Shown here in pieces: positions 9,864 through 63,531 of a stretch of DNA of 64,000 bases. A program made the translations under genes and the position numbers. The notes below the pieces were generated by a model, which was not told the origin of the DNA, searched no databases, and saw only the letters and a program-made list of their open reading frames with translations. The number at the start of each line of letters is the position of its first letter. The stretch's first letter is position 1. This stretch comes from Morinoia aosen (taxonomy: Eukaryota; Arthropoda; Malacostraca; Amphipoda; Talitridae), in NCBI GenBank assembly GCA_030386875.1, contig CM059556.1, positions 40,154,964-40,218,963 on the forward strand, read 5' to 3'.

Positions 9864-11079
9864 TGTTATATTCTTCTTTTCTTTAGAATCCAAATTCTAG
9901 GGTTTTCAAATTTTTACGTCTTTTCAAGTCTAATCTTCAAATCAAAGGGGTTTTTTTCCGAAAGAAACCCCTCAGGGGGATACAGATATTGTATCTATGG
10001 GAATTAGCGCTCCCAGGGGAAAAATGTGAGGGCCCGAGCTGAGAGTTAGGTAGGCCTTCTTTTTGTTGAAATAAAATGTTTTTTGTTATGTTAAGGACCA
10101 CCTTTTTTCGGTTCACTACTGTCCTGTTTTTCAGCACCTCTGACTTTCTTCTTCATCTTTTATCTTATTTCATGAACTTCTTTCCCATCTTACTTTTTCT
10201 ATGCCCTTTCTGCATAGATTCCTCATTTTCTTATCTCCATACTAAATGGTGCCTTCCTCCTTCCTCTCTTCGATACGCTCTATTTTTGCAGCGGTTAGGG
10301 AGGCTTAAACTAACTTATAATCTAATCTAATCTTCCGAAAGAAAACACGTCTCTTTCAATGTGGCCACATCGTTTTACTTGTTATAATGAAAGATGTACA
10401 CAAAACATGACAATGGGGTAGATGAGACTAGCAAATATTAGAACAATTGCTACGAGGGTCTTACGCAACTTTTGGGTACGCAGCGACGTCGGGGTATGAT
10501 GATAAGATCTCGAATTGTACGTTAAAGTCTTTTACGTGAAGATTAATAAGATTAACACAGAGTCAGGGACTAATACGGTGTGCCTACCGTATTCAAGTTA
10601 CAAATTAAAGAAAGCGGCACCGAGAGATCTTTAAGCGACGGAGTTTCGCTCTATAGTGATGATGCCCTAGCCCTCGTCGTACCCTTTAAGTAGACTCGCG
10701 CCGTGACCGTTACTTCTGGAGCACGCAGCAAAATGCCGCAGCTGAATACCCCTGTCGTCGCTTAGGCCCAGCCGCACTCTCGGGTAGTGCCCGCCGTTGC
10801 CATCTGCTGTTGCCGTCCGCTGCTACGCTGGTGCCATGCTGGTGCCATGCTGGTGCCATGCTGTTGCCACGCTGCCACGCTGGCCCTGGGAGCGCAGGCG
10901 TTGCCTCTTTTTTTTGTAACGGTCGAGCCCTCGCTGGGTAAGCATCGACATCTGGCGCGTTGTATAATGCTGAGCTTTGAGATTTCCTGATAGCAGAGTT
11001 CGGTGTAAGCTCTCACGTCCAACCGCCTTTTACTCTTTTTTGTGGTGAAAACTTAACGGTTCGTACACGGGACACAACA
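9864..11079 (-). repeat. 5' LTR of the gypsy-type element, with a nested retroposon
   Basis: This has the same sequence as 2129-2968 apart from a 365-bp retroposon plus its 12-bp target duplication. Without those it is about 839 bp. Confidence 0.93.
9968..10332 (+). mobile_element. Short retroposon copy 2, inside the LTR
   Basis: This is a full-length copy starting at CCCCTCAGGGGG and ending in TAATCTAATC. It is flanked by the 12-bp duplication TTCCGAAAGAAA (9956-9967 and 10333-10344), which is single in the other LTR. It inserted after the retrotransposon and so dates recent activity of the family. Confidence 0.95.
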
Positions 11080-11224
11080 CGATTGACGTCTCGTTTGTTC
11101 CGATTGACGTCTCGTTTGTTCCGATTGACGTCTCGTTTGTTCCGATTGACGTCTCGTTTGTTCCGATTGACGTCTCGTTTGTTCCGATTGACCTCTCGTT
11201 TGTTCCGATTGACGTCTCGTTTGA
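11080..11224. repeat. 21-bp minisatellite, right part (TGACGTC units)
   Basis: About seven units of the same 21-bp type as 1231-2128, mostly with the CTCG variant that also ends the left block. With the retrotransposon removed the two blocks join in register at the CGAT target. Confidence 0.93.
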
Positions 11225-29200: not shown

Positions 29201-32200
29201 ATCAATGCAAAGGCTCGCTTGTGGTTTCACTCGGTAGAGCTGAGTTATGAAAAACCGTGAATTATTAATGAGAAAAAAGATGCCACACTATTCCCAAACT
29301 TATCTCACCCTACACGAATATTTCATACTTGAAGTATAGCCATATAAAAGCGTCACTTATACATTCAGTCATTGATGTTGGCAATTTTTCAGTCAACAAT
29401 CTTCTGTGAAGGCTCACTTGTATATTTAGTTGCAGATGTTGAAGTTTTCTCAATAAAAATAGTAATCTCCTATTATTGTAAATAGTATCCCTATTGTTCC
29501 TACATAGACTCGCTTTAATTTTATGCATAAATAATTTTTTTCAGAGAGTTGGAGACCTATCAGCTGGTAGAGGGCTGCAATTTTCTCCTGAACCAAAGAC
29601 ACTTCTTTGAGACAAACCTCTTCTGCTACAATGTTACAGGTACTGACTCCGTGAAGTATAATCTCTCCTTCTAAAAAAAAAAAATTCCCCTCAGGGGGGT
29701 ACAACTATTGTATCTATGGGAATTAGCGCTCCCAGGGGGACAATGTGAGGGCCCGAGCTAAAGGTTAGGTAGGCTTTCTTTTTTTTTTGTTAAAATAACA
29801 TAGGCTTTTGTTTTGTTACGGACCATCTTTTTTCGGTTCACTGCTGTCCTGTATTTTCAGCACCTAGTACTTTCGTCTTCAACTTTGATCTTGTTTCATG
29901 AACTTCTTTCTCATCTCTGTGCCCTTTCTGCATAGATTCCACGTCCCCTTAACTCCATACTAAATGTGCCTTCTTCCTTCCTCTCTTTGGATCTCATTTG
30001 TTGAGGATAGGGAGGCTTAAACTAACTAATAATCTAATCTAATCTAAAAAAATTTTCAAGTTGGATTCATAATTATGCGTGAAAATAATTATAAATAGTT
30101 TTAATGTGTATAATTTCGTCTTTCGAACTGTGTTTTTGTGTTAGGAAGACACCGAAATGAAACAAATGGAAATGAACTTTGAATAAAATAGTATTTACTT
30201 TACAGGTATTGAATTTACAGTGACTCACAGAACAAGCAGTCAAAACAACAAACAAAAAAAGTAAATAATATAGGCAAGTGACGAAAAAATTAACCAAACA
30301 AAAAAGAAAAAAAAATCAACTAAGCCACCGGACAAACTTACGAGCAAGCAACCACGCAAACCAACTAAAGAGCAACCAAACAAACCAACGAACAAGCAAG
30401 CCACAATCCTAAAAAACTAATAACATATAATTTGAAAAGTATTTTCGAACGAACATCGTATAATTTTAAAAGGATTTTACGAACGACATCGTATAATTTT
30501 AAAAGGATTTTACGAACGGACATCGTATTATTTGAAAAGGATTTTACAAACGATCCAACACCTGCAAGAATAATCGATGAAATTTTCGCCCGCTGTGCAG
30601 ACTATTGCCCCGGCTTCTCCCTGAAGAGGCTGGTGGAGAGCCACGCTCCTCAGTGCCTCAGTGATGACGCCGTCAAATTCTACGCCGCTGAGCTGCTGCT
30701 CGCCATCTCTACTCTGCACGAGGTAGTTAGTGGCACTCTGAACGGTGTAAATAGTATTAGTAATTAGGGTTTATTTGTAATTAGTGTCTGAGTAGTTAGT
30801 ATTTATTTGCAATTAGTGTTGGAGTGGTTAGTATTTATTGTAATAAGTGCTTGAGTAGATAGTATATATTGTAATTAGTATTTGAGTAGATAGTATTTAT
30901 TGTAATTAGTGTTTAAGTAGATAGTATTTATTGTAATTAGTGTTTGAGTAGTTAGTATTTGAGTAGTTAGTATTTGAGTAGTTAGTATTTATGATTGGTT
31001 ATAGTATTTATTTGTACTTAATCTATCATTGTAAAAGTGAACATCAAATTCCATGGTCTCAAAGTATGTATCTCAGATAGCTATGACTATTGCACATATG
31101 GTGATTGACCCGAAGAATGTGTTGCTGAGGGACAAAAATGTTACATTAAAATTCTGTTAGCTATATTTGATTCTCATTTCAAATGAATTTTCATTTCAAA
31201 TGAAATTTCATTTCAAATGAATTCTTATTTCAAATGAATTTTCATTTCAAATGAATTTTCATTTCAAATGAATTTTCATTTCAAATGAATTTTCGTTTCA
31301 AATGAATTTTCGTTTCAAATGAATTTTCGTTTCAAATGAATTTTCGTTTCAAATGAATTTTCATTTCAAATGAATTTTCATTTCAAATGAATTTTCATTT
31401 CAAATGAATTTTCATTTCAAATGAATTTTCATTTCAAATGAATTTTCATTTCAAATGAAATTTCGTTTCAAATGAATTTTCGTTTCAAATGAATTTTCGT
31501 TTCAAATGAATTTTCGTTTCAAATGAATTTTCATTTCAAATGAATTTTCGTTTCAAATGAATTTTCGTTTCAAATGAATTTTCGTTTCAAATGAATTTTC
31601 GTTTCAAATGAATTTTCATTTCAAATGAATTTTCATTTCAAATGAATTTTCATTTCAAATGAATTTTCATTTCAAATGAATTTTCATTTCAAATGAATTT
31701 TCATTTCAAATGAATTTTCGTTTCAAATGAATTTTCGTTTCAAATGAATTTTCGTTTCAAATGAATTTTCGTTTCAAATGAATTTTCATTTCAAATGAAT
31801 TTTCATTTCAAATGAATTTTCATTTCAAATGAATTTTCATTTCAAATGAATTTTCATTTCAAATGAATTTTCATTTCAAATGAATTTTCATTTCAAATGA
31901 ATTTTCATTTCAAATGAATTTTCATTTCAAATGAATTTTCATTTCAAATGAATTTTCATTTCAAATGAATTTTCATTTCAAATGAATTTTCATTTCAAAT
32001 GAATTTTCATTTCAAATGAATTTTCATTTCAAATGAATTTTCGTTTCAAATGAATTTTCGTTTCAAATGAATTTTCGTTTCAAATGAATTTTCGTTTCAA
32101 ATGAATTTTCATTTCAAATGAATTTTCATTTCAAATGAATTTTCATTTCAAATGAATTTTCATTTCAAATGAATTTTCATTTCAAATGAATTTTCATTTC

Positions 32201-43962: not shown

Positions 43963-46900
43963 TCACATCCAGTCCCCTTCGTCGCCGTCGTCCGGCCTGA
44001 CGACGAAGGCCCCGTTGATGCCCCTGACGGTGACGGAGGCGGGCCGCACCATGACGCCGTGCTGCGGGCGGCAGGTGAAGTAGCGCCGCCCCAGCACCGC
44101 CCCGTCGTGCCGGCCCTGCGCCTGCCGCAGCTCCAGCCCCAGCCACGTCCCAAGCTCGAAGTCAACCGGCCCGATGTACTTCACTGTGCCTGCGGCGGTG
44201 GGGACTGTATCAGTGGGAGCTGTATCAAGGGGAGGGGCTGTATCAGTGGGGAGGGGCTGTATCAGTGGGGAGGGGCTGTATCAGTGGGGAGGGGCTGTAT
44301 CAGTGGGGAGGGCTGTATCAGTGGGGAGGGCTGTATCAGTGGGAAGGGCTGTATCAGTAGGGGGGGGGCTGTATCAGTAGGGGGGGGCTGTATCAGTGGG
44401 GGGGGGGGCTGTATCAGTGGGGGGGGGCTGTATCAGTGGGGGGGGCTGTATCAGTGGGGGGGGCTGTATCAGTGGGGGGAGCTGTATCAGTGGGGGGGGG
44501 GCTGTATCAGGGGGGAGGGCTGTATCAGGGGGGAGGGGGCTGTATCAGTGGAGTGGAAAGAAAAAGAAAAAAAAGGAAAGGCTGTGGGGGGAGAGGCTGT
44601 ACTGTACCAGTGGAGGGAGAGGCTGTATCAGCGGGGGAATTGACTGCATCAGTGGGGAAGGAAGGGGGGGGGGGGGGTCGAGGAAGAGAGAACTGCAACA
44701 ATGAAAGAATCGATCACTCAGGAAGCACATATGTCAAAAATGTTAGACACTGTCATTCTACTCCTGCTCAATTTTTTAGAAAATGAGAGCATGCCAGAGG
44801 CGATTCGAAATCCGAACGTTAATGAAACGCAACTACTCTATTTAATAATGGAGCTATTGGGGCACTCCGTGACTGTTGAAGTTGTACACTCACCAATGTC
44901 ACCAGAAGACGGTACAACGACGTGACTACTGAAGTTGTACACTCACCAATGGCGCCAGAAGACGGTACAACGAGGTGACCATTGAAGTTGTACACTCACC
45001 AATGCCACCAGAAGACGGTACAACGACGTGACTACTGAAGTTGTACACTCACCAATGGCGCCAGAAGACGGTACAACGACGTGACTATTGAAGTTGTACA
45101 CTCACCAATGCCACCAGAAGACGGTACAACGACGTAACTATTGAAGTTGTACACTCACCAATGCCGCCAGAAGACGGTACAACGTCGTGACTATTGAAGT
45201 TGTACACTCACCAATGCCACCAGAAGACGGTACGACGACGTGACTATTGAAGTTGTACACTCGCCAATGCCGCCAGAAGACGGTACAACGAAGTGACCAT
45301 TGAAGTTGTACACTCACCAATGCTGCCCTTGTAGAAGACGTTGCAGCCGACATCGACCCACTGGTTGTCGAAGGTTTCCCTGCCGTAGTACTGCGGGTTG
45401 TAGCGCATCGACGGCTTGCTCTCTATGTTCTCGTGCCACCGCGGCTCCTTGGCTTCTTCTTCCTTCTGTTTCTGCAGCTCCTCCTGGCGCAGGCGTGACG
45501 ACACGTACCTTGTGTAGGGTTAGATGGCGTGAGTTATAGTTCGAGTCCCCAAAATAAAGGTGTTTCAAAGAGAGGAAGGTAAGGTTACATTATGTGTTAA
45601 CACGCTGGTCGCGATGTGAGCCGCCGGTGCACATGGGAGTTTTCATAATGCTTCTGCCCGACCAGTAGTCACAAATTCAATTTTTATAAGCGCTTAAAAC
45701 TAAATATTTAGTTAAATGTTTGCTGTTGTCAAAATTGCTCCCATCAATTGACTTTAAAATTGACTTGAATGTTGAATTGTAGTTCAACCCACCGTTGTCA
45801 GCGTGTCATGGTTGAAGCTGAAATAAAAATCTTTCCTTATTCTGTTTTTGCATTTTTGTGTTGGGAAAACGCTCGATGGTATCATAAGCCATATAAAAAA
45901 AGTGTGATTCAAAATCCCAAATTTGAGGTCATGATGTCCTTTAGTGATCAGCACGGTAGAAAAAAAACAAGGTAGGGTCTCTTTTTTTTCGTCGACCGTG
46001 CGGCAATGCTGACGTCATGACAACGGGCCAATAGCAGCGCTCGTATTGCATCTGGCAACACTGATAGCAATGGGGACATAGCGTTTTATTGGCTAGCCGA
46101 ACAAGAGGTGTATTTTCTGTCATAGAGATGACTCTACCTTGTTTCCTCTACCGTGGTGATCAGGCAGGGTGATCAGTTCAAGTGATGGAAATACGGACAG
46201 ATAACTTGCACTAAACTACATGCCGTTTAACGTAAGATAAATCTTTAGAATTTTGAGATAATTTTCAAAATTGCTCGTCATGATATTGGTAATCAGTGTA
46301 CCACTGATTCACTCCTCCTCCCATGAGTAGAAATGATACAAAAAATTTTCAATTAGGCCCTATTTAAAAAATTCTCGCAATTTAGTATCAGAGATCTGAT
46401 TTTTGTGGCTCACCCTGCTAAAATGACACGAAAATGATCGAATTATTCACGGAGTTCTTGCCATTTAATATAAAATTATTATTAAATAATTAAACGTCTG
46501 GCGTCTCTTTAAATTTAAAAACAAATAAACATTTTTTCAAGGGCGAAATTTCACCTGTGTTACTACAATGGGAATCTCCCTGAACACGTTAAATTGGTTG
46601 GTCGGTTTCTTTTTCACGCTCTTAAAGGATGCTTAATGACCGTATCTGTGATACGAGTTTCGCAAGTGCACAAGTACAAGAATATTTTAATGGCTAGTAC
46701 CTTTACGATGGATATATTTGTTTGTCATCCGTATCTGAAAGATTTATTTAAAGAAACTATCGAATCCTGTCATTTTTGACGGGTCGTATATACTAGTATA
46801 AAGTAAAATCACAAATCTAATACAATAAAACGGTCACCTGGCAGAGAAGGACTTGTTGAGGTGGTTCATGGAAGTGTTGGGGGGATAGAGCGCCCTGCTG

Positions 46901-49900
46901 CAGGTGAGGTCAGGCAAGAGGATGGGCAGAGCTACGCTGGCACGACCATCACTGGACTCGCTCATGTACTGCAGCCACGACGTGTACAAGTTGCTCTTCT
47001 TCTCAGCTACTTTGTCTACTTCCAGAGCGGATGAATTCTTGGGAACTTGCGGAGGCTTCTTCTTTGAGGCGGTCTGGGCCGATGAAGAGTTATGCCGCGG
47101 GTGCTGTTCCGGCACTTTACGGTTCGTTTGTTGGTGCGATGAAGAGATCAAGTTTTCTTTCCCTGGAGATCTAACCTTCTTGGGAGAGCTGCTTCTTTTA
47201 AGGCCAAGAACGTCATTTTTGACGGTCTTTGAAGATTTCCAGTCTTTTGCAGGGCGGTTACAAGCTTTCTGTTTGTATCCCATATCATGCGGGGATTCCA
47301 TTTGAGAAATATCGTCTGGTCCTGAAGAAGTTGAATCGACTCGTGCAGAGTATCTCATTTTCGTGGCACTTTCGTAAAGGTTCTGGGTCGAGCGACTGGG
47401 CCGGTTATAGATAAGTCCTGGTAAACGGTACTGGTCCAAACCATCTCCATCTTTTATCCTGGAAAAGAATGATTAGATTGAGGTATAACTGGCGTTTTAT
47501 ACGGTTAAAAATTAGTAAAAAACTGAATTCCTTTCATCCAAATAGCATAGATTAATTATAAACAGATGCTATGTGTATTTTAATAGATTGTGTCAAGGAA
47601 CAAAAAGAATTGATGGACGGGAAAAACAAATGTTTGACTACTCACTTGGCTACCCTAGAAGCAGCAGCGAACACGCCGTGTTTAGGACGACTGTGGAAGT
47701 AGACCGTGCCGTTGACTGTGCCGTCTGTGCTGCCAATGGCCTCGTCAAGTTCGACGCCCACCCAAAATCCTGAAGCGAATGCTACGTTCCCGACGAATCT
47801 CACAATCCCATGGGCTACCCATCGGTGCATTTGAAAAGCAGGGTCTTGGTCCGAATATTTCTCGACGGATTCGCTTGAGTGAGAAAATGATCTTCCATAA
47901 CGAGTCTGATCGTTACGCTCGGCATAGTTTACATCGTAAGTCGAACCGCCGTGTCTCTGAGAACCATTGGATCCACCGCGACTTATTTCAAGAGAAGAAC
48001 CTCCATGTTGCTGTTGTCTCCTGGAGCTAGCAGGAAAACCACTGGACCCACCACGGTTGACCTCAAAAGAAGAACCGCCATGTGACTTCCTTCGCCTTCG
48101 TCTCGAGTTGCTGAACAGAGACGTGAGGGACGCCATGCCAGGCTGGCCTGGAGTCACTCGCAGGTCCACCAGCACTCTTTCGCCCACAGAAATTTTGCGG
48201 GTGTCGTCACTGATGTCTGTTGTCGGTAGAGATAAATGTGGATGAAAATTGTTGCTCGCTAGCGCGAAGTCGGGAACATTGGTGAAGAACGATGATGAAT
48301 ATTGAACTGGCAATTAACAGAATTGATAACTCAAAACAATATTTTGAATGAAAATTTAACGAATTTATCACTTGAAACAAAATTTAAATGGGAACTAACG
48401 AAAATTGAACCAGCAATGAACAGAATTGTTAGCTGAAAACAATATTTTAAATTGCAATTTACAGATTTTATAACTTGAAACAAAACTTAAAATGTTAACT
48501 AATGAAAATTAAACTGGTAATTAGCAGAATTTATATTTGAAATGAAATTTGAAATGCTTACTAAAGGAAATTAAAGTGGTAATTAAAAGAATTTATAACT
48601 TGAAAGTCTCGTAACGAGTGGTCAACCTCACCATCAGCTAGGGACCTCACATCCACCTATAGAGACAGTTGCATCCTCCCAAGAGGAAATATCCGCTCCA
48701 CCTCACCTAACGCCACTCGGGATCCAATCCCACTCACCTAACGCCACTCGCGATCCAATCCCACTCACCTAACGCCACTCGCGATCCAATCCCACTCACC
48801 TAACGCCTCTCGCGATCCAATCCCACTCACCTAACGCCACTCGGGATCCAATTCTCGAAACGTCGACTTTGCCACGGTTGACTCGCGCCGGCGGCAGCGA
48901 CAGAGACCGATGACCTGCTTTGTCCCTGTGGCCATCCTCGGTGGATGAAGAGTCCCGGGACGGACGGTCCTGTGTCCGGGACGGGCCAACGGACCGTTCA
49001 CGGGCCGGGACCGCCCGTCTGACGGGCCCACGGCCCCGGGACACGTTCGGGATTTTGGTGAGCCGCAGTACGGGCACGAACAGGCCTGGGGTTATTTTAC
49101 ACGTTAACTGCGATATTTTACACGTTAACTGCGATAGGTGAGTTTAATGTTAAATTCAGAGATCAAATTCAGAGAGAACACTATCACTTTGATCCCATCG
49201 TGAGCCACCGGTAGCCACTGAGGGGATTTTCATAATGCTGCCGACCGACCAGTAGTCTCAAACTCAACTTTCGTAAATACTTAATTCAAGCTAAATGAAG
49301 GTACAAATCAGTTAATGTTTGCGATTTTCAAAATTGCAAACTTGAATTGACTTTCAATTTGAGTTGAACATTAAACTTAAGTTTAACCAATTGCTGTCAA
49401 AGTGTTAAATAGATTGTGCTTTCATTTAGTTTCCATTTAGTATTGATGAAAATTGCGTTTGTGACTGCTAGCTGGTCTGTCAGCAGCACAATAAAAATCC
49501 CTTCAGTGACCACCGGTGGGTCGCATCGCAGTCAAAAAGTGTTGAGGGTTGATGAAATACAATAAATAAATTAGATCAAGCCTCCTTAACAGTTACGAAG
49601 GCATTACAAAGAGAAGGAGGAAGGAGCCATTTAGGATGGACTTAAGGCGAGGTGAAACAAGACATAAGTTGAAGAAGATTAGATTAAATTATTAGTTAGT
49701 TTAACCCGCGCACGGTCGCGCATCCCTCAGAAAAGTAGTCAATTTACCCGCGTTACTCTGCCGTTCCCTGTTCACTTACCGTAATAGGCAGAGATGTAAA
49801 AATATGAAGTAATGAGTAAAAAATGTTGCTTTACACTTTGATGTTGTCAGATTTTTGATAACTTGAACCGTTTCTTTGTAATATGGAGTCAAACTCCGTC

Positions 49901-52900
49901 GATTTTTGCACAACATTGCTTCAAAGAGATCAATGGCCATTTTTGTGTTTTGGAAACAATGTAATGTTTTTCACTGCTATTTTATGCAGAAAATCCTTCC
50001 AAACCTGCTGATGTTTTTATTTTTCCTCTACAACAATTAGAAAAAAAGTTATGACCATTCATGTCTACTAGGTGTTATCCATTCTTCGTTTTAGTTCCTA
50101 CATAAATGCATGTTTGCATGTCTGGTTATATTACTGTAAGTATAGTGTTTCGAAACTTGTAATTTTCACACAATATGAATAAAATACTGCTCTACACGCT
50201 ACTGACTTCAGATTTGTCTTATTTGCCATTTTTACGAAATAAGGCGAAATAAGGCCCTGAGTAGTTTCGCTGGTAACTGAGGCTGCCACTGACTGTTCGC
50301 ACGCACACCCTCTCACGGTCGCCTCATTTACCACACTGACTGTGCTTACCCCTCCCAACTTCCAAGTGGTTGGAGCTCTGCCTTAACCCCCACAATGTGG
50401 GGGTTTCTGGCTCCAGCTGTGTAGCACTCGCTGAGACGATCATTTTGGTGTATAACAACTTGGGGTTATGCCTTACGTCTGGCAACCAGTGAGCCTGGTA
50501 AATGAGGCGACCAGTTACAGTGCGCGGGTTAAGCCTCCCTATCCGCAACAAAGGCGATCCAAAAAGAGAAAGGAAGAAGGCACCATTTAGTATGGACTTA
50601 AAGGGAACGTGGAATCTATGCAGAAGAGGCATAGAAACAGTAAGATAAGAATGAAGTTCATGAAACAAGATCAAAGTTGAAGAAGACAGTAGTAAGTGCT
50701 GAAAAAACAGGACAGCAGTGAACCGAAAAAAGATGGTCCGTAACAAAACAAAAACCTATTCAATTTTAACAGAAAAAACGCTTACCTAACCTTCAGCTCA
50801 GGCCCTCACATTGTCCCCCTGGGAGCGCTAATTCCCATAGATACAATGGTTGTATCCCCCTGAGGGGTTATGAAATATAAAATGATTTTATTTATCGCTA
50901 GCACGTTTTAATTGATTTTAAAACATGAAATGATTTTATCGTTTATAATTAACACATTTTAATTGATTATATAATACATAAAACGATTTTATCGTTTATA
51001 ATCAGTAAATTTTGTTAACAAAACGCGGAGCTCTCACCGCAGTTGGCAGCACAGCGGAAGTACACGACCCCCCGAACGGTGCCGTTGTGGCGCCCTCCGT
51101 TGGGGGTCTCCAGCTCCACCCCCGCCCACAGCCCCACCGCGAACTCCGTTGTGCCCGCGTACCTGCGCAAATCGCCTCAACTAAGCCGTGTTTTTCTTGG
51201 TGACAGTTTTGACTTACGCTGAGTGACTTTTTATCAGTTCTGACACGCGGTGAGTGGGATGGGCCTGCACAAAAGTTTGACTTCTATTCAATTACCGATA
51301 ACGGACAGGCGGTAGGAGTATTGTTAAATATCCAACCTTCAATGCATAACACATCGCTGTATCAATTTATGGATTTTAAAACATTCAGAATTTCAATTTT
51401 TATTCCAAAGCTTGTTGCTCACTGAAGTAGGGGGGCCATTCACGACGACAAATTAAGAAAAATGACAACATTACACACGGTCACGTTTAATTTCAATTTT
51501 TATCAACCATTTTTCCGCGCACATTTGAATGAGTTTTAAATATCTTTAGATAATAATGGAACGAAGTCGTCCGACATTCAACTCCATACAATGATCACTG
51601 ATACATTTCTTTTTCATTAGTTAAATCGACACAAATAAAATGCAAAGAATTGCTCAGGAATTTCCAATTAATGGAGTTCGGATTGCCAATTTCTAATTAG
51701 TGGAGTTCAGTTTACCAATTTTCAATGAGTGGAGTTCAGTTTACCAATTTTCAATGAGTGGAGTTCAGTTTACCAATTTTCAATGAGTGGAGTTCGGAGC
51801 ACCAATTCCCAATTAGTGGAGTTCGGAGCACCAATTCCCAATTAGTGGAGTTCGGAGTACCAATTCCCAATTAGTGGAGTTCGGAGTACCAATTCCCAAT
51901 TAGTGGAGTTCGGAGTACCAATTCCCAATTAGTGGAGTTCGGCGTACCAGTTCCCAATTAGTGGAGTTCGGAGCACAAATTCCCAATTAGTGGAGTTCGG
52001 AGCACAAATTCCCAATTAGTGGAGTTCGGAGCACAAATTCCCAATTAGTGGAGTTCGGAGCACAAATTCCCAATTAGTGGAGTTCGGAGCACAAATTCCC
52101 AATTAGTGGAGTTCGGAGCACAAATTCCCAATTAGTGGAGTTCGGAGCACAAATTCCCAATTAGTGGAGTTCGGAGCACAAATTCCCAATTAGTGGAGTT
52201 CGGAGCACAAATTCCCAATTAGTGGAGTTCGGAGCACAAATTCCCAATTAGTGGAGTTCGGAGCACAAAGTCCCAATTAGTGGAGTTCGGAGCACAAATT
52301 CCCAATTAGTGGAGTTCGGAGCACAAATTCCCAATTAGTGGAGTTCGGAGCACAAATTCCCAATTAGTGGAGTTCGGATTTTTGTAGCCTCCATATAAAA
52401 CATCTCTCGCCTTCTTTTCCAGAGGTTTTCCATAAAATCAATTGCAAAGGGTTTTCATATTTAATATTCCACACAGTTTGTTCAGTTTTACGCAGTTTTT
52501 TTCACCTCAGTATCTACTATACCCCCAAGGCATGTTCTCACCCAAGTACTGTCAATTCCCTACAAACTTTACTCCTCCAATGCGCACTTTTTTCGAAGAA
52601 CTTCTGACTGCAAAGCTCAGTAATTCTCAACGACTTTTCACACTTTATTTATCCAAGTTTAAGTAATTTATAAATTTAATTCCTCTGAAAATTGAGTTTG
52701 TAAATTTTTTTCCTGTAGGAAATAAATTTATAAATTCATATCCAAATTTTTATGATTAATAAATTTATTTCCTATTTTTCTCAAATAATAAAATTATTTC
52801 CCATGAAAACTATATATACTTATTCATTTCCTACGGGAACAAAATTCATAAATTTATTACCCCTGAAAATTAAATTTACAAATTGCTTCACCATGGGAAC

Positions 52901-55900
52901 TAAATATTTAAATTTATTTCCTATAGGACAAAAATTTACAAATTGATTTCCTATAGGACCAAAATTTACAAATTTATTTCCTATAGGACCTAAATTTACA
53001 AATTTATTTTCTATAGGACCTAAATTTACAAATTTATTTCCTATAGGACCTAAATTTACAAATTTATTTCCTATAGGACCTAAATTTACAAATTTATTTC
53101 CTATAGGACCTAAATTTACAAATTTATTTCCTATAAAACCTAAATTTACAAATTTATTTCCTATAGGACCTAAATTTACAAATTTATTTCCTATAGGACC
53201 TAAATTTACAAATTTAATTCCTATAAAACCTAAATTTACAAATTTATTTCCTATAGGACCTAAATTTACAAATTTATTTCCTATAGGACCTAAATTTACA
53301 AATTTATTTCCTGTAAAACCTAAATTTACAAATTTATTTCCTATAGGATCTAAATTTACAAATTTATTCCCATAAGACCAAAATTTACAAATTGATTTCC
53401 TATAGGAATAACATTCAATAATTCATTTCCAATGGGAACTGTCTACTCATATTACCACTCTCCCCCCACCCCTCATCCCCACCTCCGCAACTCACCTGAG
53501 CACACCCGTCAGAGCTCCGTTGACGAGGACGCGATCCCCGAGCTTGAGGCCCATAGCCAAGAGGACAGCCTTCCCCCCTCCCCCTGGGGAGTAGGTCTTG
53601 AGGGCCTCAGGTCCCCTGCAGGAGGCGGTGCTCCCGTTGGGGACATCCCTGAGGAGGTGGAGGAGGTCCTCGATGGTGGCCTGGACATCCGGGACTTGAC
53701 TGTACTGCTCCGAGGCCGGCACACAGTCTGGGGGGGGGATTATCTGAGGGGTCTGTCTGAGGAGGCTATTTCTTTGGATATGTTGGTACGGAGGGTACTT
53801 GCGTGGACTCCTAGATGATATCATAATCTCACCAGCAGGCCCAACGATCTCACCAGTAGACCCCACAGAATAATCTCACCAGTAGACCCCACAGAATAAT
53901 CTCACCAGCTGACCTGACCCCACAATCTCACCAGTAGATCCAACACAGTAATCTCACCAGCAGACCCCACAATCTCACCAGTAGACCCCACAATCTCATC
54001 AGCTAACCCCACACAGTACTCTCACCAGCAAACCCCACAATCTCACCCGCAGGGGTCCTGCCCCTGGCGTCGCGCCCCCGGGGGTCGGCCCCGTGCCTCA
54101 GCAGGGAGCGCGCGGCCCCCACGCAGAGGTTGGCGGCCGCCATGTGCAGCGGCGCTCCTCCGTCGTACTCGTGGCTGGGGTCGTCCGGGGGTACGCCTGG
54201 GAGGGTTGGTGGAGTGGGAACCAGACGGAGTGGGATCAAATGGGAGTGAAAATTGCCTCAAATGAGAGTACAAATTGCATCAAATGAGAGTACAAATTGC
54301 CTCAAATGAGAGTACAAATTGCCTCAAATGAGAGTGAAAATTGCCTCAAATGAGAGTACAAATTGCATCAAATGAGAGTACAAATTAAATCAAATGAGAG
54401 TATAAATTGCCTCAAATGAGAGTACAAATTGCCTCAAATGAGAGTACAAATTAAATCAAATGAGAGTATAAATTGCCTCAAATGAGAGTACAAATTGCCT
54501 CAAATGAGAGTACAAATTGCCTCAAATGAGAGTACAAATTGCCTCAAATGAGAGTACGAATTGCATCAAATGGGAGTGAAAATTGCCCCTAATGAGAGTA
54601 CAAATTGCCTCAAATGAGAGTACAAATTGCATCAAATGAGAGTACAAATTAAATCAAATGAGAGTATAAATTGCCTCAAATGAGAGTACAAATTGCCTCA
54701 AATGAGAGTACAAATTCCCTCAAATGAGAGTACAAATTGCATCAAATGAGAGTACAAATTGCATCAAATGAGAGTACAAATTGCCTCAAATGAGAGTACA
54801 AATTCCCTCAAATGAGAGTACAAATTGCATCAAATGAGAGTACAAATTGCATCAAATGAGAGTACAAATTGAAATTGCCCCTAATGAGAGTACAAATTGC
54901 CTCAAATGAGAGTACAAATTCCCTCAAATGAGAGTACAAATTGCATCAAATGAGAGTACAAATTGCATCAAATGAGAGTACAAATTAAATCAAATGAGAG
55001 TATAAATTGCCTCAAATGAGAGTACAAATTGCATCAAATGAGAGTACAAATTAAATCAAATGAGAGTATAAATTGCATCAAATGAGAGTACAAATTGCCT
55101 CAAATGAGAGTACAAATTAAATCAAATGAGAGTATAAATTGCCTCAAATGAGAGTACAAATTGCCTCAAATGAGAGTACAAATTGCCTCAAATGAGAGTA
55201 CAAATTGCATCAAATGAGAGTACAAATTAAATCAAATGAGAGTATAAATTGCCTCAAATGAGAGTACAAATTGCCTCAAATAAGAGTACAAATTGCCTCA
55301 AATGAGAGTACGAATTGCCTCAAATGAGAGTACAAATTGCCTCAAATGAGAGTACAAATTGCCTCAAATGAGAGTACAAATTGCCTCAAATGAGAGTACA
55401 AATTGCCTCAAATGAGAGTACAAATTGCATCAAATGAGAGTACAAATTGCCTCAAATGAGAGTACAAATTGCATCAAATGAGAGTACAAATTGCATCAAA
55501 TGAGAGTACAAATTGCTTCAAATGAGAGTACAAATTGCATCAAATGAGAGTACAAATTGCCTCAAATGAGAGTACAAATTGCATCAAATGAGAGTACAAA
55601 TTGCATCAAATGAGAGTACAAATTGCCTCAAATGAGAGTACAAATTGCCTCAAATGAGAGTACAAATTGCCTCAAATGAGAGTACAAATTGCATCAAATG
55701 AGAGTACAAATTGCCTCAAATGAGAGTACAAATTGCCTCAAATGAGAGTACAAATTGCTTCAAATGAGAGTACAAATTGCATCAAATGAGAGTACAAATT
55801 GCCTCAAATGAGAGTACAAATTGCATCAAATGAGAGTACAAATTGCCTCAAATGAGAGTACAAATTGCCTCAAATGAGAGTACAAATTGCCTCAAATGAG

Positions 55901-58900
55901 AGTACAAATTGCATCAAATGAGAGTACAAATTGCCTCAAATGAGAGTACAAATTGCCTCAAATGAGAGTACAAATTGCATCAAATGAGAGTACAAATTGC
56001 CTCAAATGAGAGTACAAATTGCCTCAAATGAGAGTACAAATTGCTTCAAATGAGAGTACAAATTGCATCAAATGAGAGTACAAATTGCCTCAAATGAGAG
56101 TACAAATTGCCTCAAATGAGAGTACAAATTGCATCAAATGAGAGTAAAATTGCCTCAAATGAGAGTACAAATTGCATCAAATGAGAGTACAAATTGCCTC
56201 AAATGAGAGTACAAATTGCATCAAATGAGAGTAAAATTGCTTCAAATGAGAGTACAAATTGCATCAAATGAGAGTACAAATTGCCTCAAATGAGAGTACA
56301 AATTGCCTCAAATGAGAGTACAAATTGCATCAAATGAGAGTAAAATTGCCTCAAATGAGAGTACAAATTGCATCAAATGAGAGTACAAATTGCATCAAAT
56401 GAGAGTACAAATTGCATCAAATGAGAGTACAAATTGCATCAAATGAGAGTACAAATTGCATTAATTAGTGGGAATTGTATAGGACAGAAGAATGAACCAC
56501 AACACACATCAATCTATAAAGGGTATCTTAGGTATCAATCTATAAGCAAATTTAACTTCAAAGTCTAACTCATATGTGTATTTGAAGCAGGCATCATGAA
56601 ATATTATATCAATGTAAAATTGTACCTTCAGGGTCCTCCATGAGAAGGTCAATCACGAGAGGAACATCGAAGAAAGCAGCGTAGTGCAGGGCGGTCATGT
56701 GGGTCCACTTGCAGCGCTGGTGTGGGTCCGCCCCGCCCCGCAGCAGCTCCTCCACCACCTGCACAGGGTGTTGGTCAACTCACCCGCCTCTAGCTTCCTG
56801 GGCCACACTACTCATGTAAGGAACGGAGTTACAGAATGTACAAAAAAGAATTAGAGAGTAGTAGTGCATGTAAGAGAATTAGAAGTAATGTACGAAAGAG
56901 CATTAGAGCAGTTATGTACGAAAGAGAATTAGAGCAGTTATGTAAGCAAGAGAATTAGAGCAGTTATGTAAGCAAGAGAATTAGAGCAGTTATGTACGAA
57001 AGAGAATTAAAGCAGTTATGTACGAAAGAGAATTAGAGCAGTTATGTACGAAAGAGAATTAGAGCAGTTATGTAAGCAAGAGAATTAGAGCAGTTATGTA
57101 CGAAAGAGAATTAAAGCAGTTATGTACGAAAGAGAATTAAAGCAGTTATGTACGAAAGAGAATTAGAGCAGTTATGTACGAAAGAGAATTAGAGCAGTTA
57201 TGTACGAAAGAGAATTAGAGCAGTTATGTACGAAAGAGAATTAGAGCAGTTATGTACGAAAGAGAATTAGAGCAGTTATGTACGAAAGAGAATTAGAGCA
57301 GTTATGTACGAAAGAGAATTAGAGCAGTTATGTACGAAAGAGAATTAGAGCAGTTATGTACGAAAGAGAATTAGAGCAGTTATGTACGAAAGAGAATTAG
57401 AGCAGTTATGTTCGAAAGAGAATTAGAGCAGTTATGTACGAAAGAGAATTAGAGCAGTTATGTACGAAAGAGAATTAGAGCAGTTATGTACGAAAGAGAA
57501 TTAGAGCAGTTATGTACGAAAGAGAATTAGAGCAGTTATGTACGAAAGAGAATTAGAGCAGTTATGTACGAAAGAGAATTAGAGCAGTTATGTACGAAAG
57601 AGAATTAGAGCAGTTATGTTCGAAAGAGAATTAGAGCAGTTATGTACGAAAGAGAATTAGAGCAGTTATGTACGAAAGAGAATTAGAGCAGTTATGTACG
57701 AAAGAGAATTAGAACAGTTATGTACGAAAGAGTATTGGAAGAAATGTACGAAAGAAAAGTAGAGCAATTTTGCACGAAAAAAAGCATAGAAGTAATATGA
57801 GAAACTGAATTACAGAAGTAATTTAGGAAACTGAACTTTAAAAGTGATTCAAGAAACGGAGCTACAGAAGTGATTCAAGAAACGGAGCTACAGAAGTGAT
57901 TCAAGTAACGGAGCTACAGAAGTGATTCAAGAAACGGAGCTACGAAAGTGATTCAAGAAATGGAGCTACGAAAGTGATTCAAGAAATGGAGCTACGTAAG
58001 TGATTCAAGAAATGGAGCTACGGAAGTATTGTGCAAACAAAATTATGGAGGTGATTTAAGATGCACAAAAAAAAATGTAATGTTGTAACGAACGTATTGG
58101 AATTTTGGCGTGAACTTTGACAACAGCGAATTCGACTGCTGCTTATTCCCTTCTACTTCTACTTTGTGGCCTGTACGTGAATGTCATCTGACGACATAGG
58201 GGAATTAAAGTAAGAACCTAAAAAAGGGTCAATCGGCTCAATTAGTTAACATATTCTATTCTAATTAATTAGGCCGGGCGAATGAAAACGTTCAAATGCA
58301 ATGGTTATTGAGAATTATTATTATTATATAAGAAAGTTTCAGCCTCCCTTAACCACGACAAAGATGTTCCAAGAGAGGAAAGAGGAAGGCACCATTTAGT
58401 ATGGAGTTGAGGGAATGTGGAATCTATGCACAAGGTGCACAGAAACAGTAAGCTAGGAAAGAAGTTCATGAAACAAAAAAAAAGTTGAAGAAGAAAGTAG
58501 TAGGTGCTGAAAAACAGGACAGCAGTGAACCGAAAAAAGATGGTCCGTAACAAAACAAAAACCTATTTTATTACAACAAAAAGGAAGCCTACCTAACCTT
58601 TAGCTCGGGCCCACACATGGTTCCCCTGGGAGCGCTAATTCCCATAGATACAATAGTTGTATCCCCCTGAGGGGTGGTTATTGAGAAACATCGTTTCAAT
58701 TGTTACCATCGTAACAATTTTAACAAATAGCAAGTCAGTACCTACAAGCATCTCAACATCCTTTCAATAGTTTTGGCTACAAACGAAGGATACGTCCAAG
58801 CAACGTCGCCTATTAATTTTGCTGCTGAAAGCGTGTAAGGATCCCTTTTAGTTCAGATAGATTTAGAACTACCATTTCAATTCCGATCTAGATTAGTAAT

Positions 58901-61900
58901 GTTTTCGATGAGCTTGTACCTTTACACAGGGTCTCCGACCCCCAAGGCAAGATCTCACTGAGTACCTCACCTGGACCGCCACACTGGGGTCTCCGACCTT
59001 CCAGCGCAAGATCTCACAAAATACCTCACCTGGACCGCCACACTGGGGTCTCCGACCCCCCAGCGCAGGATCTCACAGAATACCTCACCTGGACCGCCAC
59101 ACTGGGGTCTCCGACCTTCCAGCGCAAGATCTCACAAAATACCTCACCTGGACCGCCACACTGGGGTCTCCGACCCCCCAGCGCAGGATCTCACAGAATA
59201 CCTCACCTGGACCGCCACACTGGGGTCCCCGACCCCCCGAGCACCAGCCTTCACAGCGTAGTGAAGTAAAGTCATGTCCGTGGCTGCGTCTCTGTCGTTG
59301 ATGCCAGCGCCGCCCTTTACTGCCTGAAATTATATCCAGAGTAAATTCTTCAGCTTCAAAACTGCATTTCATCTCTAGAATTAAGGTTTTCGTTAACTTG
59401 GAAGAGAAAACCGGTAACTGAGTATTTACCGGCTCTGTTACAAATGGTGATACTCATGCTGCAGTTATCTGAATTTCTTAGCTGTTAAGTTTACATTTTA
59501 TACACTACCACCAAGGGATGTTTTACATGTTTGTTTATGCACTAGAGCATCTAGTATGAAAACATCACATGTGGATCTAAACTCTTAGGTTCCCAAAAGT
59601 GAATGAACTTTTCCGCATCGAAGATCAAGGGAATCTTTCGGTTCAGTGTCAGCAGCATTATGAGACTCCCCTCAGTGACCACCAGTCGGTCCCTTCGCAG
59701 GAAACGTAATATTTGGCAGAAGAAACCTGCACCCACCAGCCCAACAAGAGGCCCTATGTTCAGCTGCACTCGTGGGTCCCACTGCCGCAGGACTGCAAAC
59801 ACGTGCGCTGCGGACAGATGTCCCTTCTTCAGGAACGCCCAACAGCTGTCGCACTGGATGTTGAACAGAGGGTACCCTTTCCTGACGCATGCATTGCAGG
59901 AGGGCGGGTCCAGGGCTGGGTGTATCACAGGGCGCGCGTTCGGATCCATGAGGGCAACTCCACCTTGGCAAACAAGGAAATAGAAATGAGAATGGATGGG
60001 AATATTTATTCTGCTTATTTGCCAACTGAGTTTCGTTTTCTACTCCGAGGAGGTCAGGAATGAAATTTTTTGGTCCGCTAACTCATCATTTAAACTCAGA
60101 ATAAGACTTTACTACCTGTCTCCATTTTCAATTTTATTTCAACGACTCACTAGCCAAGACTTATTTCAAAAAAGCGTGTCATATAACACACTAAGTTCAA
60201 GTCTCAAAGTCTTGAGTGAAAATCATACCTTTGGCTACTTCCACGGAATCCTCGTAAGTCGAAGCAGCGCATTCTGAAAAGTTATCATGCTCGCCGTCAA
60301 AGTACACGTCTGGTGCTCTATCCTGAACTTGCAATGAAGAATCTGAATACTGAGTTCTGCTGGGATGAGAACCGGTCACAAAAGGTCTGTTACTACATGA
60401 AGGAGCGATATTATCGCCCTTGGAGCATTGGCTGCAGTCTTGGGAGCAGGAGGATGCCAGTTCGTCAGTGGTGCCTCCGATGAGGCGAGTACGTTCGCTT
60501 TGGTAATCTAACTTTTCAGTGCGTACGATACCAAGCAGAGTCTGGTCCTCCGCAGCGAGAGGAATATCCATTTCCGAACAAGACGAATAGCGTACCGGTG
60601 TTGTCTCTTTACCGCCGAGTTCGTCTTCCGAATTGCGTAGTTTTGCTGACGTGGAAGACCTTCTGTGCGACGCTCCGTCTTCATTCGACCTGACATTGGC
60701 AACGAAGCAAATCAGGCGGATAAAATTTATACAATTATACCTTAAATTAGCAAAGAAATAAAATGATCAGCTGGGACGCTAAAATAATATATCTCAAGGG
60801 GAGAAAAGCTTCCTCCCACTAGGTCAGTTATATTGAGCGGTGTGCAAATGGTTAATCCTCAAATTAGAACCAAGAGGCTGAAATAATCAATATTAACAAA
60901 TTTAGCGGAATAAACTGATTGCCTACGGATAAGTATATCAGTGCCTTACGCAAGAGCGCCCTACCTGAGTTCTAACGAGGAAATATAAGTTTACAAACGT
61001 AGTAGTAAAGGAATGAACTTTTCTAAACGGTTACGTGTTTAGAGAAAAACTTATATGGGCGTTTTTTGATCAATTTCTACAAAGCACGCAAAAGATTAGC
61101 CCGTGACGTATTCATTTACACTTTACGTAACTCTAATTAAATAAAATTCTAAAAAAATGCGCGTATCCAGCTTCACGAAGCAAGGAGAAAGGAGAAATGA
61201 TATGTAGATAAAGTGCAACAAGTTATAAATTGAAGTTTCAGACCATTTTTCGGAGTTCGGCTTTGACTTCTTCACAAGACGCCCTTTCATCGTAGCCGAC
61301 CAGTTGCTAATGGGCCCGTCCTGTACTTCTTTTAGAATCAAGGCTGTCGAAGAAGAGCAGGAAGACACCAGTGACGACGACGAAGAGTTCAACGACATGC
61401 TCGATGTTGGTGAAACTGTCGACGGAGAATCGGCTTTGGCTTTAGACCCGCCACCCTCAGATGATTGACCTGATAATATAAGGTTCTTCGATACGCATCT
61501 CTTTTTTGAGATGGATACTGCACTCGCACTCGATGTGACAGGTGTTCCAGTGGCTGTGAGCGGGCAAGATGTATCTGTGTCTGTTGTGTGTTCTTTTAAA
61601 TTCGATATTATGCTAGAGAAATCAGTGCAAGTTTCACTGTACGAGGACAGGCCTGTAGTTTCAGCGACCTTGAAAACTCCACTTGGATTATTAGACCCAT
61701 TTGCCAATTTACCTTGCACCTGAGTCGTAGAGGGCATAGATATTTTCTTTTGAGTAATTTTCCTCGGTGATTTAGACTCAAGTTTAGCCCCGGAGGAATC
61801 TGACGAAACCTTGAATTCCTGGAGTTTGTCAACAACAGATTCTTCTTCGCTTGTTGAAGTAACTTTTCCTAAAGGGACGGAGTCCGCTAGAGTTTTGATG

Positions 61901-63531
61901 CTATCGAGACTAGAGTGACTCGAGTTAACGGAATTGCGCGTGTCATTAGAGAGCAGGTCTTGCTTGGAACGGCAGTTGGCTGTCGAAGTAGGTAAAGTGG
62001 AATCTTTCTTGGCCTTCACATTACTGTACCCGCTCGTTGAACTGGACAGAACGATAGACTTCGCATCGTAGTTGCCCGGAGCGCTAGATATTGTGATGGT
62101 CATCACACCAGACTGCGACACTTGCGTTATTTGCTGTCTCTTCAAATCCTCACTTTTTTTCCCTTTGCCGAGAGCTAAAGTTGCCTTGATGTCGTCCGTG
62201 GACGACCCACTACCATTCGAAGGCGGCTCCGGCGATGCGCCGAAATTTTCAGTCGTGAATATGCCGCTGTCTTGCAGTGATCTACAAAAATAAGACCAGG
62301 ATGAATAGAATGAATTATTTCTCAAGGCGATAAGACAAAATTATGCCTTCATATTGATTGATAATAAATTAATTTAAGCCTCCCTTACCACAACAAAGAT
62401 ATTCAAAGAAAGGAAGGATGAAAGCACTATTTAGTATGGAGCCAAGGGAACGCGGATCTATGCACAAGGTGTGTTCTCGTACTGGATTCCGTGCTCACAG
62501 AAGCTGTAAGGAGTTAAGAAGGAAGGTTAAGAAGCAAGATAAAGGTTAAAAAGTCAGAAGTGCTGAAAAACAGGACAGCAGTGAACCGAAAAATGATGGT
62601 CCTGAACAAAACACGAAACATTTTATTTCAACAAAAAGGAAGGCCCTTGCTCTCAGCTCAGGACCTCACATTGTCCCCCTGGGAGCGCTAATTCCCATAG
62701 ATACGATAGTTACATCACCCGTGCATGTTACTTCAGATGTATGGACAAGTTTTTTGTAACATCTGATTCCTACATATTTTACTGAGAACAAGATCCATCA
62801 CCTTTTGGAACGCAAATATTTTACCGTTTTGATACGAAAAACTGGAGTCCTTTAAGTTGAGTGCAAAGCATGAAGAATCATTCATAGAAGGTAATTTCTA
62901 CTATTTGTTCAGTCAACCAAGAAAATTTTTAAATAAATTCCACAAAGCCTTTTTGATAAGATTACACTGCCACAAAGTTTAAAATAATTTGCTGGAAATA
63001 TCATAAATAAGCTGGAGAATATTCAACAAAACTATTCAGAAAGATTTTACAACACCTTTCACTGTCGCTGGAAGACAAATCTGATTGAGCAGACGAAGGC
63101 TTGGAAGCAGCAGGATTATTCGTGACCAAAGTTTCTGCGGCAACTCCAGGAGAGCCTGACGAAGTAGAAGGCTGCGTCACGTCTTGGCCAGGCATGGTCA
63201 CAGCGTTGTGGTGTCTCAAACTTGAATCCAATGGGAGGTAAGAATTTTTTTGAGCCCTGAAAGTGACTAAACAAGCGTTTGTCTCTATTTCACAAACGGC
63301 TCCTAAAGACAGAAGTTCAGCTGAAGTGGACTGCGGGGAGTGGCTGAGCTTCGTGTCCGAGCACCCTGAGAACACCAGCACAGAGTCGTGCCCGTAACGC
63401 GTATCTGCTGCTACTGAGGCCACTGGATCGAAGTGTCTTGGTTTCTTCGGCACGACTTTAGGAGTGTTGCAGAACTGAGGTGGCGGTGGCGGGAACGATG
63501 GCGACTCTCTAGGGTGTGGAAGGACGCTCAT
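43963..63531 (-). CDS. CLIP4: CLIP3/CLIP4-like CAP-Gly linker protein, fourteen exons
   Basis: Exons (5' to 3'): 63531-63056, 62281-61244, 60689-60229, 59963-59737, 59323-59207, 56758-56626, 54196-54047, 53727-53496, 51162-51038, 49085-48831, 48306-47646, 47458-46838, 45508-45318, 44189-43963. All phases agree (4,914 nt, 1,637 residues). Residues 1-658 are Ser/Thr-rich extension. Next come HVFAVLRQW, typical of CLIP4; ankyrin repeats at about 735-867 (DMTLLHYAV, MTALHYAAFFDVP, APLHMAAANLCVGAA); and CAP-Gly 1 at about 926-1000 (GLKLGDRVLV). CAP-Gly 2 at 1110-1291 is split by an insert, and CAP-Gly 3 lies at about 1549-1618 (YIGPVDFELGTWLGLEL) before a GDWM end. CAP-Gly domains bind tubulin and EB C-termini at microtubule ends (family knowledge). 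The weakest junction is the exon 2 donor (ATG|GTCTGA). A splice acceptor lies 15 bp before the chosen Met, so coding could start further upstream. Confidence 0.9.
44195..44680. repeat. ~19-bp G-rich minisatellite before the last CLIP4-like exon
   Basis: About 20 units of CTGTATCAGTGGGGAGGGG, with G runs up to ten. On the transcribed strand each unit reads as a pyrimidine run, then ACTGATACAG, i.e. a branch-point-like CTGAT with an AG. It begins about 6 bp from the real acceptor. The plus strand could form G-quadruplexes. Confidence 0.93.
44868..45317. repeat. 53-bp minisatellite copying the CLIP4-like exon 13 donor
   Basis: About eight units directly follow the exon end. Each contains, on the minus strand, GGCATTG|GTGAGTGTACAA, nearly the same as the real GCAGCATTG|GTGAGTGTACAA. 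The rest of the unit (CCGTCTTCTGG and GTCACGTCGTTGT on the minus strand) has no exon similarity. Confidence 0.95.
45594..45809 (-). mobile_element. M1 inverted-repeat element, copy C, CLIP4-like intron 12
   Basis: In reverse orientation it has GAGCCGCCGGTG, ATTTTCATAATG, CGACCAGTAGTCAC and an end at GTTGTCAGCGTGTC. Confidence 0.7.
45952..46155. mobile_element. 204-bp MITE with CACGGTAGA ends, CLIP4-like intron 12
   Basis: The ends CACGGTAGA…AACAAGGTAG(G/A)GTC are inverted. A perfect 8-bp duplication, GTGATCAG, flanks it (45944-45951 and 46156-46163). The 8-bp duplication fits hAT or P-type elements. Family not assigned. Confidence 0.88.
46560..46800 (+). mobile_element. Dispersed repeat family M2, copy 3, CLIP4-like intron 12
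   Basis: This shares TTTTTCACGCTCTTAAAGG, TGATACGAGTTTCGCAAG and GAATCCTGTCATTTTTGACG with the other M2 copies. Confidence 0.6.
48695..48860. repeat. 31-bp repeat copying the CLIP4-like exon 10 donor
   Basis: Five units, the last overlapping the exon. Each holds, on the minus strand, GAGTGGCGTTAG|GTGAGTGG. The unit therefore spans the exon-intron border, leaving four extra donors about 31 bp apart downstream. Confidence 0.93.
49177..49546. mobile_element. Two M1 elements in inverted arrangement, CLIP4-like intron 9
   Basis: A reverse copy (49177-49408, ending GCTGTCAAAGTGTTAAAT) is followed by a partial forward copy (to 49546, with GTGACCACCGGTGGGTCGC and GCAGTCAAAAAGTGTT). Confidence 0.68.
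49574..50867 (-). mobile_element. Short retroposon copies 13 and 14, CLIP4-like intron 9
   Basis: A partial copy at 49574-49684 is followed by a full-length copy whose body is 50533-50867 (minus strand, ending CCCCTGAGGGG). Its tail (TTAGATTAAATTATTAGTTAG) is at about 49680-49704. A piggyBac-like MITE at 49705-50528 separates tail from body. Confidence 0.82.
49705..50528. mobile_element. PiggyBac-like MITE, 824 bp, inside a retroposon
   Basis: It is bounded by TTAA on both sides (49701-49704, 50529-50532), with ends CCCGCGCAC and GTGCGCGGG. Both are the piggyBac pattern. An internal inverted pair, GGTCGCCTCATTTACCA and TGGTAAATGAGGCGACC, lies near the right end. No transposase frame. Confidence 0.88.
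51655..52378. repeat. 29-bp minisatellite, CLIP4-like intron 8
   Basis: About 24 units of AATTCCCAATTAGTGGAGTT followed by CGGAGCAC. The right 15 are almost identical and the left ones are more diverged. Confidence 0.95.
52675..53430. repeat. 30-bp minisatellite, CLIP4-like intron 8
   Basis: About 25 units with CCTATAGGACCTAAATTTAC and AAATTTATTT. It begins about 60 bp inside the intron from the exon 8 donor. Confidence 0.95.
53826..54046. repeat. ~21-bp repeat copying the CLIP4-like exon 7 donor
   Basis: On the minus strand the exon ends CCCTGCGG|GTGAGATTGTGGGG, and about ten irregular units of TGCTGGTGAGATTGTGGGGT follow, some with an extra TTACTGTG. They fill two thirds of this short intron. 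Confidence 0.9.
54235..56462. repeat. 22-bp minisatellite, ~100 units, CLIP4-like intron 6
   Basis: The unit is CAAATTGCCTCAAATGAGAG followed by TA. Variants GCAT, GCTT, CCCT and AAAT replace GCCT in blocks, giving a longer-range order. It fills nearly the whole intron, ending about 40 bp before the exon 7 acceptor. Confidence 0.96.
56855..57770. repeat. 26-bp minisatellite, CLIP4-like intron 5
   Basis: About 34 units of GAATTAGAGCAGTTATGTAC followed by GAAAGA, most of them identical. A few carry GTAAGCAA. Confidence 0.96.
57780..58045. repeat. 26-bp minisatellite, second type, CLIP4-like intron 5
   Basis: About nine units of GTGATTCAAGAAACGGAGCT followed by ACAGAA, diverging at both ends. 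Confidence 0.92.
58315..58674 (-). mobile_element. Short retroposon copy 15, CLIP4-like intron 5
   Basis: This is a full-length copy in the gene's own orientation. A 13-bp duplication, TGGTTATTGAGAA, lies at 58302-58314 and 58675-58687. Confidence 0.94.
58925..59206. repeat. 59-bp repeat copying the CLIP4-like exon 5 end and donor
   Basis: About five units directly downstream of exon 5 carry, on the minus strand, CCCCAGTGTGGCGGTCCAG|GTGAGG, i.e. some 20 exon bases plus the donor. Two unit types (CTTCCAGCGCAAG and CCCCCAGCGCAGG) alternate, so the higher-order period is 118 bp. Confidence 0.95.
60690..61243. other. CLIP4-like intron 2
   Basis: This intron is free of tandem arrays. The donor at its 5' side is weak (GTCTGA). 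Confidence 0.5.
62366..62720 (-). mobile_element. Short retroposon copy 16, CLIP4-like intron 1
   Basis: A moderately diverged copy from the CCCATAGATAC region to a TAATTTAAGCC end. It has a small insertion near 62470-62510. Confidence 0.85.

Follow-up and report, generated by a model that had tools for sequence, protein, structure and literature searches.

Tandem arrays across four splice donors of a CLIP3/4-like gene in an amphipod genome resemble the mirage minisatellites of lancelets

Mirages are minisatellite-like tandem copies of intron–exon borders described in the lancelet genes Adh3, PGBD5, troponin C and the globins; the unit is 10 to 72 bp long in Adh3 and 150 to 160 bp long in the globins, and the units lie at 5′ and 3′ borders, contain repeated AG/GT signals and vary in number between haplotypes (PMC3087553, PMC3902484). 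Mirages seem to be without effect on regular splicing (PMC3087553). Here we describe arrays at four of the 13 donors of a CLIP3/4-like gene within a 64,000-nucleotide stretch (hereafter the window) of the genome of the amphipod Morinoia aosen. We file these arrays with mirages because lancelet genes carry the same kind of border-spanning array: both consist of minisatellite-like copies of an intron–exon border that carry splice signals, including 23 donor copies in the present gene. The amphipod host lies outside the known cephalochordate range of mirages, a difference of range and not of structure, and here a single gene, set in minisatellite-dense surroundings, has such arrays at four of its 13 donors; normal splicing of lancelet mirages also has reverse transcription PCR support, whereas the amphipod arrays are known from DNA sequence alone. 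The initial annotation had not recognised repeated growth of arrays within one gene as a described phenomenon, but the category is already known; what is new is the phylum and the high number per gene.

Three further systems invite comparison. In human genes, introns are said to arise from tandem arrays with splice signals in their units (Zhuo et al. in 2007); the amphipod units likewise carry splice signals, but in the amphipod the arrays grow at exon ends already present. Ordinary intronic minisatellites, which surround the donor arrays, are similar in unit scale and instability, but their units lack an exon end and donor. Intron gain in Drosophila by tandem duplication of a proto-splice site also involves tandem copying of an AG/GT segment, whereas the amphipod copies lie inside introns between conserved coding sequence, with no new intron shown (PMC2891723). 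A literature search of open-licence papers, directed in part at crustaceans, amphipods or talitrids, found, among the matches listed, no crustacean report of donor-spanning arrays.

The host gene lies on the minus strand and encodes ankyrin repeats and three CAP-Gly domains (Table 1). Exons 5 to 14 account for both (Pfam CAP_GLY, 211.8 bits over three stretches), and the closest named relatives, among the best 120 of 360 matches, are CLIP3/CLIP4 proteins of decapods and a mantis shrimp. The exons splice into a single open frame of 873 residues, and alignment with seven relatives, including four decapods and one mantis shrimp, shows no gap at the junctions of exons 5, 7, 10 and 13. The positions of the four donors are fixed by reading-frame phase and this gap-free alignment, so the junctions assumed in the initial annotation are real. 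No homologs of exons 1 to 3 came up when the N-terminal 640 residues were searched. The affinity of the genome to talitrid amphipods or their near relatives is reflected in a myosin ID fragment, which is 95% identical to Trinorchestia longiramus, followed by further proteins at 74 to 85% and, among named species, a next match at 72%. A lancelet origin of the window was considered and rejected, the proteins being those of a crustacean.

Table 1. Features of the CLIP3/4-like gene and of arrays in the window (positions are those of the window; a slash marks the exon–intron junction)
Feature	Position	Strand	Basis
CLIP3/4-like gene model, 14 exons	43963..63531	-	frame, phase, homologs (exons 1 to 3: phase alone)
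Exon 5 (ankyrin part); donor CAG/GTGAGG at 59207/59206	59207..59323	-	frame, phase, alignment
Exon 5 array, 59 bp x 5.3; 4 extra donors, identical over 11 bases	58929..59238	-	repeat scan
Exon 7; donor CGG/GTGAGA	54047..54196	-	frame, phase, alignment
Exon 7 array, mixed 21/26/47 bp units; 8 extra GTGAG donors	53823..54052	-	repeat scan
Exon 10; donor TAG/GTGAGT	48831..49085	-	frame, phase, alignment
Exon 10 array, 31 bp x 4.9; 4 extra donors	48702..48852	-	repeat scan
Exon 13; donor TTG/GTGAGT	45318..45508	-	frame, phase, alignment
Exon 13 array, 53 bp x 8.6; 7 extra donors, identical over 11 bases	44868..45323	-	repeat scan
Exon 14 coding part and stop (third CAP-Gly); acceptor CCGCAG/GC	43963..44189	-	frame, phase, alignment
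18/19-bp array containing repeated CTGATACAG; its end lies 11 bp from exon 14's acceptor	44201..44551	-	repeat scan
22-bp array, 92% of intron 6, reaching neither splice site, 101 copies	54236..56459	-	repeat scan
Array near protein-kinase-like exon donor GAG/GTAGTTAGT (30722/30723)	30755..30992	+	repeat and word count

As the initial annotation had claimed, the repeat unit spans the exon–intron border in all four arrays. The downstream donor copies (GTRAG, in register) total 23. Judged by eye, the exon-derived share of the unit is about 33 bp at exon 5 (followed by 26 bp of intron), 7 bp at exon 7, 22 bp at exon 10 (followed by 9 bp of intron) and 10 bp at exon 13. Each of the five units in the exon 5 array also has a weaker GTGAG 12 bases past the first, left out of the 23; the first of these sites would keep the frame if used. 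The exon 13 array has one additional unit with GC for GT. If used, 22 of the 23 donor copies would yield a shifted or shortened protein, the sole frame-keeper being the exon 7 copy at +21. Unit lengths and sequences differ, and the four arrays look like separate events, as had been proposed; in addition, a genome-wide DNA search, with very common words skipped, matched the 53-bp array, the one array it covered, only to the CLIP gene and its second copy, and the idea that the 53-bp unit is a dispersed element was dropped.

This second gene copy is found on the same sequence at a distance of 2.32 Mb (C1:42518001-42548000) and is approximately 99% identical (99.2% over 8.2 kb, 99.0% over 9.0 kb and 96.7% over an array-rich 5.3 kb). 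It holds all four donor arrays almost letter for letter, with equal unit numbers at exons 5, 10 and 13 and one more 21-bp unit, donor included, at exon 7 (10 versus 9, the gene copies being either haplotypes or duplicates). Interior arrays differ as well, with 101 copies here versus 67 in intron 6 and 24.8 versus 26.8 in intron 8. About 0.8 kb of intron 9 (49707-50529) is absent from the second gene copy, and the flanking alignments overlap by 7 bases, a pattern such as a mobile-element insertion with target duplication would give. A kinesin search also gave equal-score pairs on a single chromosome, separated by 0.1 to 4 Mb (for example C16:45757691 and 47110390), so both haplotypes, or many recent duplications, may be present in the assembly.

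Over the ten introns that follow exon 4, arrays account for 50% of the sequence, and four of 14 arrays touch donors; interior arrays away from donors are as large as the donor arrays or larger. Repetition at splice junctions was scored by asking whether the junction-centred 16-mer has at least two near copies (no more than 3 mismatches) inside 600 bp, which flagged 4/10 donors, 0/10 acceptors, 5/600 exon-interior positions and 281/600 intron-interior positions. Donors thus differ from exon interior (P 4e-6), with P values of 0.087 against acceptors and 0.76 against intron interior, so their rate of repetition roughly matches that of the remaining sequence of these array-filled introns and lies far above that of exons. 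The exon 4 donor, placed one base off in this test, was not flagged, nor was the exon 14 acceptor or the GTAGTTAGT donor of the protein-kinase-like exon. The last motif has five matches in the window against 0.36 expected, one at the kinase donor itself and four in the array about 33 bp downstream, and this array is a possible fifth, weaker donor array. Elsewhere in the window, positions 1235-2130 and 11080-11223 hold a nearly identical 21-bp minisatellite unit, rotated, on either side of a retrotransposon-like stretch whose frames at 2579-2827 and 10690-10938 match, an arrangement such as an element placed in or beside an array would give.

Turning to the rest of the genome, minisatellites (period of at least 10 bp) account for 22.5% of the window, 22.2% and 10.9% of its flanks, and 0.8, 9.5, 0.4 and 2.4% of four arbitrarily chosen 10-kb stretches; the same measure gives 5.6% for 30 myosin loci together, drawn from at least 79 matches and including eight exons of a single C1 gene, so that they do not represent 30 independent genes. 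Within these 30 loci, no candidate donor has two or more near copies, and at one locus (L033) an array begins 2 bases past a candidate donor. Four larger myosin stretches (C17, C8, C9 and C2) comprise 22 exons, six of them among the 30 loci, and four kinesin stretches were sampled from at least 126 matches; for these larger stretches, arrays were counted from a period of at least 8 bp. In the C9 myosin stretch (10.7% array), the near-copy test flagged a donor-spanning array, GGAAAA/GTGAG, 37 bp x 3.9, at a donor placed by frame and profile match alone. The C2 myosin stretch (13.9% array) holds, as judged by eye, a diverged donor-spanning array, TTCCAG/GT, 62 bp x 26.5, the first copy of which is diverged; both myosins lie on chromosomes other than that of the CLIP gene. 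Candidate acceptors of C2 myosin exon 2 were also flagged as repeated and were rejected in favour of a frame-fitting acceptor further on.

The array-poor stretches (the C17 and C8 myosins and the C4, C24 and C9 kinesins, with 0 to 1.2% array, three of the four kinesin stretches among them) have no array across their listed exon ends. The remaining kinesin stretch (L053, on C11) is 43% array; on its reverse strand an array (7389-7560) begins exactly where a kinesin intron does, and two kinesin acceptors resemble, by eye, diverged last array copies. On the same strand of L053, the 63-bp unit at 9247-9752 resembles, also by eye, the 43 bases before the next exon's acceptor (TGGGCAG), and at 5236-5554 a 16-bp unit, TGTCTATTTCTTTCAG, repeated 20 times within a kinesin intron, forms an acceptor-like ladder. 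Some sampled genes thus have array-filled introns and others do not, and where such arrays are present splice sites are caught up in them.

We propose that the four arrays are probably mirage-type minisatellites in which the first duplication happened to span the exon–intron border and the donor copies are tolerated in the intron. Short segments would duplicate and then grow by slippage or unequal exchange, a process that the density of arrays suggests is frequent in this stretch. Growth within an exon would break the protein and be lost, and growth within an intron would persist; where the duplicated segment comprises an exon end and its donor, the 5′-most donor would stay on the intact exon and all copies would land in the intron. 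Such growth would be near-neutral provided that the spliceosome keeps to the first donor, as expected with long flanking introns and the exon as the recognition unit. A duplication spanning an acceptor, by placing its copies upstream of the true site, would be tolerated less often, and most donor-spanning arrays should therefore be nearly silent, acceptor-spanning ones less so. The sequence itself shows the arrays, the junctions, the donor copies, the unit difference between the gene copies, the local density and two further cases in other genes, from which we infer neutrality, first-donor use and slippage; what points to use of the first donor is the gene's open frame together with its alignment to relatives. 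The upstream of two near-equal donors is favoured with long flanking introns and the downstream one with short introns (PMC9225289). Most of the present arrays are expected to be nearly silent because long introns (2448, 614 and 1128 bp for introns 5, 10 and 13) favour the upstream donor.

Several observations weigh against this proposal. The upstream preference is a bias, covering 60% of all near-equal events, and not a rule (PMC9225289), and with intron 7 at just 319 bp the downstream donor might be preferred there. In the arrays of exons 5, 10 and 13, donor 9-mers have changed less than other parts of the unit (2/171 versus 29/559, P 0.027; the exon 7 array was excluded since its copies had been picked by their donor), which pure neutrality would not predict. 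When array positions were permuted within the CLIP gene, 4/13 donors were crossed against 1.0 expected (P 0.009); with intron set and tolerance varied, the expected number ranges from 0.8 to 1.4 and P from 0.004 to 0.03. Pooling this gene with the window kinase, one kinesin and two myosins (25 introns, 36 arrays) gave 6/25 donors against 1.5 expected (P 0.0014) and 0/25 acceptors against 1.5, in a pool that contains the gene that raised the question, whose members were not chosen blindly, from which introns of array-poor genes were left out, and in which several myosin intron limits are profile-match ends and not proven splice sites. At a tolerance of 15 bases the pooled counts become six donors (P 0.012) and three acceptors, each against 2.2 expected. 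An excess over permuted positions, the comparison proposed in the initial annotation, is seen for the CLIP gene; in the other genes alone, 2/12 donors were crossed against 0.57 expected (P 0.10). The donor enrichment is modest and does not establish a splice-site-targeted process.

These permutation results favour the view that array birth is itself linked to splice sites, with transcribed donors—through R-loops, bound U1, G-rich exon edges or AGGT repair—seeding duplications above the rate at other intron sites. The four array donors are all GTGAG, a form shared by 7 of the 13 modelled donors (arrays at four of these seven versus none of the other six, on small numbers), and the C9 and C2 myosin arrays, the L053 array on a first intron base and the L033 array near a candidate donor add further cases. 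However, the C2 and C9 stretches were picked on hints of arrays or long open frames, the 30 myosin loci and the genes outside the CLIP gene lend the idea little, near copies are as frequent in the intron interior as at donors, and the two kinesin acceptors that look like diverged array copies suggest that the donor-only pattern is partly a score-threshold effect. We regard this explanation as rather unlikely, and it is equally doubtful that transcription and donor recognition promote array birth in general, with donors as hot spots seeding minisatellites from lancelets to amphipods. The initial annotation had read the arrays as implying either selection for back-up donors or some process acting locally at AGGT; neither implication is supported: the stretch is minisatellite-dense, the arrays in the gene's last ten introns lie mostly off donors and nearly all donor copies, if used, would give a shifted or shortened protein.

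Selection for the donor copies, as back-up donors, as a U1-binding ladder or as control via unproductive splicing, would accord with the low change of the donor 9-mers and with U1 pairing energy, which equals that of the first donor in 4/4 copies at exon 5, 3/4 at exon 10 and 7/7 at exon 13, with weaker pairing in 8/8 copies at exon 7. The 9-mer comparison is nevertheless small, omits exon 7 and concerns repeats that may have been homogenised; arrays that touch no donor reach the same size or more, and copies whose use would change the frame or truncate the protein offer it no back-up. We consider such selection improbable, and back-up donors unlikely. Still less probable, to the point of being very hard to credit, is that the assembler invented or inflated the arrays: tandem arrays are hard to assemble, the lengths of long ones are uncertain and the only second witness comes from the same assembly, but the second gene copy carries the four arrays nearly identically, with a single whole-unit difference, and point changes separate the copies within an array. 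Chance border-spanning growth of mirage-type minisatellites is the explanation that we prefer.

These arrays extend a curiosity of lancelet genes to arthropods and suggest that mirages arise generally as a by-product of minisatellite growth and are not peculiar to lancelets. They also offer a natural test of the choice among near-identical splice sites, exemplified by exon 13, where eight donors with the same 11 bases stand in a row and presumably only the first gives the full protein. Finally, arrays that change length at donors may supply new splice variants and perhaps new introns, which can be tested.

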